Assembly (NCBI RefSeq): GCF_003967035.1
Contig: NZ_AP018560.1
Location: 1 to 64,000 of the forward strand
From: Aerosticca soli
GTDB taxonomy: Bacteria; Pseudomonadota; Gammaproteobacteria; Xanthomonadales; Rhodanobacteraceae
Reading direction: 5' to 3'
DNA length: 64,000 nt
Below are positions 29,416-29,495 of this stretch, in pieces (the first letter of the stretch is position 1; each line of letters starts with the position of its first letter). The notes beneath the pieces were generated by a model that ran no database searches, was not told the origin of the DNA, and saw nothing but the letters and a program-made list of their open reading frames with translations. The translations under genes were made by a program, and so were the position numbers.

Positions 29416-29432
29416 GCGCAAGCATAGTGCGC
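29416..29432. promoter_or_regulatory. Lrp-type operator, phhA side
   Basis: GCGCA-AGCATAG-TGCGC: palindrome with 5-base arms and a 7-base centre. As a whole it is the reverse complement of 29479-29495 with one mismatch in 17. On the minus strand its centre reads TATGCT (29426-29421), a -10-like hexamer for phhA 34 bases ahead of the ATG. Confidence 0.7.
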
Positions 29433-29478
29433 TTCAGGTGGCAATGGCGTGCATTTACTGTGCAAATATCGGCCCATG

Positions 29479-29495
29479 GCGCACTATACTTGCGC
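29479..29495. promoter_or_regulatory. Lrp-type operator, regulator side
   Basis: GCGCA-CTATACT-TGCGC: same palindrome as 29416-29432, centre to centre 63 bases away, or about six helical turns. Its centre holds TATACT (29485-29490), a -10-like hexamer for the Lrp gene, whose GTG lies at 29526. The layout suggests a phased octamer-type binder repressing both promoters. Confidence 0.7.

Follow-up and report, generated by a model that had tools for sequence, protein, structure and literature searches.

An Lrp/AsnC gene divergent from phhA was noted in 2005 in Xanthomonas axonopodis and Mesorhizobium loti, and a member of this family was suggested as the ancestral regulator of the phh genes (PMC1173090). 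The gene pair and its orientation are the same as those described here, and the divergent pairing and its likely regulatory role are thus already known from that source; what is unusual is the layout in the present genome. Compared with the accessible text of the 2005 paper, an operator motif with a fixed spacing, tied here to the regulator by its presence and absence, is new, and a prior description of this phhA-lrp motif and spacing was not found in the open-licence literature.

Several other Lrp-type systems are comparable in part. Ah-BarR and Sa-BarR of the Sulfolobales are likewise Lrp-type proteins with a divergent metabolic target (an aminotransferase gene in the case of Ah-BarR), several sites in the intergenic gap and autoregulation, but they are archaeal, respond to beta-alanine and use a 15-bp semipalindromic motif at other spacings (PMC10201364). 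In the control region of the Ss-LrpB gene of Sulfolobus solfataricus several palindromes recur at regular intervals, each occupied by one dimer, with wrapping (PMC4046817), features that are proposed here as far as dimers and wrapping are concerned; its 15-bp consensus TTGCAAAATTTGCAA corresponds to GCA-N5-TGC as against GCA-N7-TGC here, and the protein is archaeal and acts on different targets. KynR and BkdR of Pseudomonas aeruginosa are Lrp/AsnC-type regulators divergent from amino-acid catabolic operons (PMC8707732) and are likened to the phhA system by gene arrangement, whereas their pathways differ from it. The regulators PhhR/TyrR, HmgR, HmgQ and HmgS likewise control phenylalanine or tyrosine catabolic genes in gammaproteobacteria but are members of the TyrR, IclR, LysR and MarR families (PMC5343134); the word "Lrp" has 0 occurrences in the main text of that paper. 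In the window the neighbour of phhA is of the Lrp/AsnC type, and not the adjoining TyrR-family regulator of a PhhR/TyrR regulon.

By the window we mean the whole 64,000-nucleotide stretch of the Aerosticca soli genome that was analysed; the features of the locus are collected in Table 1. The phhA product was assigned using the TIGR01267 model for bacterial phenylalanine 4-monooxygenase (362.2 bits, cut-off 264.75), and a GGCTCC-like ribosome site (minus strand), which recurs in many relatives, lies upstream of the gene. The adjoining lrp gene runs in the opposite orientation, which gives the divergent Lrp/AsnC-phhA pair, and its product belongs to the Lrp/AsnC (feast/famine) family by domain content, with an AsnC-type HTH (62.3 bits) and an Lrp/AsnC ligand-binding (RAM) domain (79.6 bits), both above their cut-offs. 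It fell below the cut-off of the E. coli Lrp equivalog model NF008370 (119.6 bits, cut-off 233). Among solved structures the nearest in sequence is 2p5v (E 9e-45), an LRP/AsnC-family regulator that we take to be Neisseria NMB0573, and 2gqq, a leucine-responsive regulatory protein and presumably E. coli Lrp, ranks behind it.

Table 1. Features of the phhA-lrp locus, with positions counted from the first base of the window.
Feature	Position	Strand	Remarks
phhA, phenylalanine 4-monooxygenase, 297 aa	28494..29387	-	TIGR01267 and PF00351; ATG at 29387-29385
phhA-side palindrome GCGCA-N7-TGCGC, probable operator	29416..29432		centred on phhA -10; top motif score of 64 kb
phhA -10-like hexamer TATGCT	29421..29426	-	inside spacer of phhA-side palindrome
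Remnant GCA-N6-TGC, one base short	29441..29452		register of relatives' phhA-side operator, 40 bp from lrp-side site
Third, weaker palindrome TGCA-N7-TGCA	29450..29464		between the other two; motif score about 4.5 bits
lrp-side operator (predicted) GCGCA-N7-TGCGC	29479..29495		centred on lrp -10; conserved; second motif score in 64 kb
lrp -10-like hexamer TATACT	29485..29490	+	inside spacer of lrp-side palindrome
lrp, Lrp/AsnC-family regulator gene, 156 aa	29526..29996	+	GTG start; PF13404, PF01037

In the 138-bp gap between the two genes the initial annotation had described a pair of GCGCA-N7-TGCGC palindromes, 63 bases apart and reverse complements of each other with one mismatch, each with a -10-like hexamer in its spacer. 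The description was accurate: the 17-base units GCGCAAGCATAGTGCGC (29416-29432) and GCGCACTATACTTGCGC (29479-29495), whose starts are 63 bp apart, are identical at 16 of 17 bases after reverse complementation, and TATGCT (phhA) and TATACT (regulator) are both present. The bare pattern is not rare, since two copies in the window compare with 1.40 expected, at least two were found in 38 of 100 shuffles, and 33 exact copies occur in the 2.87 Mb of the genome. The inverted pairing of the two palindromes, unlike the bare pattern, is unusual against chance: inverted 17-mer matches within the gap reach 16, as compared with a maximum of 14 over 400 shuffles of the gap, and when the window was tiled with 463 stretches of 138 bp only one, which by its coordinates holds this gap, reached 16, and five reached 15. 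The 16/17 likeness alone overstates the case because part of it is the shared -10 hexamer.

When the 33 genomic copies were scored with the motif derived from relatives (see below), the two window sites obtained 21.3 and 19.6 bits and the next copy 13.4 bits. One other pair among these copies lies within 200 bp (827631 and 827809, starts 178 bp apart; L148:1631-1825). It is situated upstream of a fumarase gene, inside mechanically listed open reading frames; it is probably due to chance and was not adopted as an operator.

The centres of the three palindromes in the gap are 33 and 30 bp apart, a suggestive phasing that resembles spacings reported for Lrp-type regulators (PMC8707732). The middle palindrome is unsupported by sequence as a third operator because of its low score with the motif.

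Relatives were chiefly of the genera Dyella, Rhodanobacter, Luteibacter, Fulvimonas and Pseudoxanthomonas. An Lrp ortholog was found at E 1e-45 or better in 141 of 197 sampled family genomes. In 128 of 129 loci, a number that includes the window and duplicates, phhA is divergent from the Lrp ortholog (at least 58% identity), and the remaining locus (L023) stops 194 bp past lrp; these loci are best matches rather than a random draw and include many close kin. They yielded 108 distinct gaps including that of the window, and thus 107 from relatives. One further observation concerns a 3.5-kb contig filed as Candidatus Paracaedibacter symbiosus (L099), which carries an Lrp gene 77% identical beside phhA with the same gap motif and is possibly a stray contig from another bacterium in that assembly. 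Across the class, 31 of 185 sampled genomes have phhA, and an Lrp-type match lies nearby in 4 of the 29 non-window loci, divergently in 3, two of which belong to the window's own order; the phhA-Lrp pair is therefore far from universal. A locus from another order of the class (L152) combines a phhA of 53% identity with a divergent Lrp-type gene of 41% identity, and no copy of a GCA-N7-TGC-type motif was visible in its gap on inspection by eye.

The initial annotation had proposed a search for the same GCGCA-N7-TGCGC pair in related gaps, its absence being set beforehand as a refutation of the switch. The pair was absent from all 107: two copies occur in the window alone, one in 8 of the 108 distinct gaps and none in 99, and conservation of the exact pair was accordingly rejected. 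What is conserved is the looser motif GCA-N7-TGC, typically in two copies 40-41 bp apart. In an unseeded count of all 3+3 palindromes with spacers of 0-15, GCA-N7-TGC was the commonest (86 of the 107 relatives' gaps, with the exact form missing in 21), as compared with a top count of 15 for any palindrome in 20 shuffles of these gaps. Between one exact copy and the next the distance is 40 bp in 21 cases and 41 bp in 8, and distances of 11, 31 and 71 bp occur once each. With an unseeded matrix built from the relatives' copies, the best place in the 64 kb was 29416 (19.3 bits) and the next best 29479 (17.7 bits), ahead of a third place at 12.5 bits.

The earlier matrices had been seeded with the lrp-side site of the window, and in the first of them the window was itself counted; later seeded matrices left the window out of the counts, but the relatives' sites had been chosen with the first matrix. 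The unseeded repeat of the motif search and ranking gave the same outcome as the seeded matrices. With an earlier matrix the two palindromes were again at the top of the 64 kb (19.3 and 18.6 bits; third 10.1), and the motif can be approximated as GCGCAATATTCTTGCG for the lrp promoter (from 85 relatives) and as CGCGCACGAAGCTTG for the phhA side (from 81 relatives). Two loci (L024 and L025) were left out of motif training and of the footprint. Relatives with an lrp-side site below 8 were also left out of the spacing and footprint counts, so that 85 of 105 were kept for the former and 87 of 105 for the latter. Of the 105 relatives, 87 have a site scoring at least 8 at the lrp -10 and 18 do not, and the window has such a site at 29479-29495; TATTCT-like hexamers occur in relatives in the same register as the window's lrp -10. 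Among the 81 relatives with both sites, the spacing is 40 bp in 70 and 41 bp in 9, the two others having 37 and 15 bp. A weaker copy of the motif is found in many relatives 31 bp beyond the lrp-side operator, at the lrp start, where the average is raised (z about 20) and 10% of 87 relatives exceed 5 bits.

The occurrence of the motif was compared between loci with and without the regulator using the first, window-seeded matrix. A score of at least 12 within 150 bp upstream of phhA was obtained for 100 of the 107 gaps with Lrp, for 0 of 19 upstream regions without an Lrp ortholog (highest score 4.8) and for 0 of 74 coding stretches. The controls came from 20 tested family genomes out of the 56 in the sample that have no Lrp ortholog; 19 of the 20 have kept phhA in its absence (e.g., G053, G071, G077, and G079). 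Because the motif had been learned from the gaps with Lrp, the comparison was repeated with separate training and test sets, although the joint matrix again served to choose the training sites; positive test gaps numbered 15 of 19 in one run and 73 of 88 in the other, as compared with 0 of 19 controls both times. Plain GCA-N7-TGC, which needs no matrix, was found in 86 of 107 gaps with Lrp versus 1 of 19 controls, and the form with one mismatch is unspecific (104 of 107 versus 13 of 19). Since the motif accompanies the regulator and is not found where the regulator is lacking, we conclude that it belongs to the Lrp-type protein. The palindromes of the window are very probably operators of the adjacent Lrp-type protein, as judged from their top two motif ranks, the divergent pairing and the tracking of the Lrp gene by the motif.

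The phhA side of the window departs from the arrangement in relatives. There, in 79 of 81 relatives with both sites, 40-41 bp separate the phhA-side site from the lrp-side one, and the former is situated just upstream of the phhA -10, whereas in the window the second palindrome lies at 63 bp and on the -10 itself. A second operator 40-41 bp away and just upstream of the phhA -10, a common though not definitive trait, is thus lacking in the window; the score in the 40-bp register is -17.2, and the alignment also shows this register to be broken. The promoter itself is in its usual place: in the window the phhA -10-like hexamer is at -56 from the lrp-side operator, and 68 of 87 anchored relatives have one at -55 or -56. 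All ten arm bases around this -10 are found in the window, as against a maximum of seven of ten in the 68 relatives whose -10-like hexamer is in place. Fulvimonas soli, which has the closest Lrp found (86%), carries GTGCGG on one flank of the phhA -10 but lacks a matching arm on the opposite flank, and a genus search found no second genome of the genus. Because the relatives are without the matching arms, the symmetry is, among the genomes searched, a feature of the Aerosticca soli lineage. By sequence comparison the predicted lrp-side operator is ancestral and the phhA-side palindrome is not. The motif average of the relatives is raised at -62. Since a reversed lrp -10 is similar to the phhA -10 by itself, this signal was not read as a weak operator of ancestral origin; it is probably due to the shared hexamer.

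A tentative account of this layout is that the phhA-side operator moved in this lineage. The ancestral site would have lost its spacing by one base, and an operator similar to an inverted copy of the lrp-side site would have arisen on the -10, 23 bp away and in a six-turn phase with the lrp-side site. A regulator that had been activating or mixed would thereby have become a plain symmetric repressor of phhA and lrp, while the geometry of the promoters stayed as it was in other respects.

On balance, the best explanation for the locus is probably that the gap holds two Lrp-type operators, that the bound protein represses both genes and that a ligand relieves this repression; the binding, the oligomer, the repression of phhA and the ligand are what we infer. 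An Lrp-type dimer would bind each GCGCA-N7-TGCGC palindrome. Since the 63 bp between their centres correspond to six turns at 10.5 bp per turn, both sites would lie on one face of the helix, and a single octamer could hold the two with the DNA bent or wrapped in between. Each predicted operator covers the -10 of one promoter, and protein bound there would therefore repress lrp and phhA. The ligand, which judging from the gene context is most likely phenylalanine or tyrosine, would loosen or rearrange the complex, allowing phhA to be made. Of the symmetric switch claimed in the initial annotation, the part that held is the placement of predicted operators of the adjacent Lrp-type regulator on both promoters, with a motif that tracks the regulator, but the exact symmetric pair proved unconserved in the 107 gaps; the aromatic amino acid signal proposed there is likely from the gene context. 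Several results were counted against our explanation. The phhA-side palindrome is not conserved as such, and the relatives' site, being just upstream of the -10, might function in activation. An lrp-side site scoring 8 is missing in 18 of 105 relatives and the exact GCA-N7-TGC in 21 of 107 gaps, the form with one mismatch is unspecific, and a genome-wide model search (see below) recovered the lrp-side site alone.

The main rival is a dual function. The Lrp-type protein may repress its own promoter and activate phhA, with the ligand modulating both functions, as proposed by analogy with Ah-BarR, an autorepressor that activates the divergent gene and round an octamer of which the DNA of the gap seems to be wrapped (PMC10201364); BkdR similarly activates the divergent bkd operon (PMC8707732). 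Neither promoter has a good -35 (at best 3 mismatches to TTGACA at spacers 15-19), and the absence of a -35 from the phhA promoter, in the window as in the relatives' consensus, also favours a dual function together with the upstream operator of the relatives. Against this stands the layout in the window, where the predicted phhA-side operator coincides with the -10 and the register upstream of it is disrupted. We regard a dual function as possible but unlikely.

We regard it as rather improbable that the lrp-side palindrome is the sole operator and that the phhA-side one is an unbound by-product of a -10 in GC-rich flanks. Such a by-product would fit the lack of both arms together at that place in the 68 relatives, the contribution of the shared -10 to the likeness and the 33 genomic copies of the bare pattern, but it accounts poorly for the highest score in the 64 kb with the relatives' motif and for an inverted match of 16/17 that was never reached in 400 shuffles. 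That the palindromes are bound by a different regulator is a reading left room for by an assignment to Lrp made from sequence, and is very improbable given that the motif tracks the Lrp gene (100 of 107 versus 0 of 19).

With regard to further targets, a 19-position model built from 84 relatives' sites had 29479-29495 as its sole match at E values up to 10 in the whole genome (E 0.92); when applied to the window alone, both sites lead (12.3 bits lrp-side, 11.3 left). As the left site was also missed in the genome search, this search is not exhaustive for other targets. The hpd-hmgA-fahA and phhB regions (32 kb in all) contained no comparable site (best 7.2 bits). The hpd-hmgA-fahA cluster, at about 757.6-761.5 kb of the genome, is adjoined by a divergent MarR-family gene (cluster with neighbour, L146:4948-9502, about 756.9-761.5 kb), which is reminiscent of the HmgS predicted in Alteromonadales (PMC5343134). 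These scans, which covered the rest of the genome by model and by exact pattern, suggest that the Lrp-type protein acts locally, on phhA and on its own gene.

The analysis yields a concrete operator motif for the phhA-adjoining Lrp-type regulator, with a GCA-N7-TGC core and typically two copies at a fixed spacing. The two operator placements on otherwise conserved promoters, that of the relatives and that of Aerosticca soli, offer a natural comparison. If it is true that the move of the phhA-side operator changed the sign of control, this would be an Lrp-type switch rewired through operator position alone.
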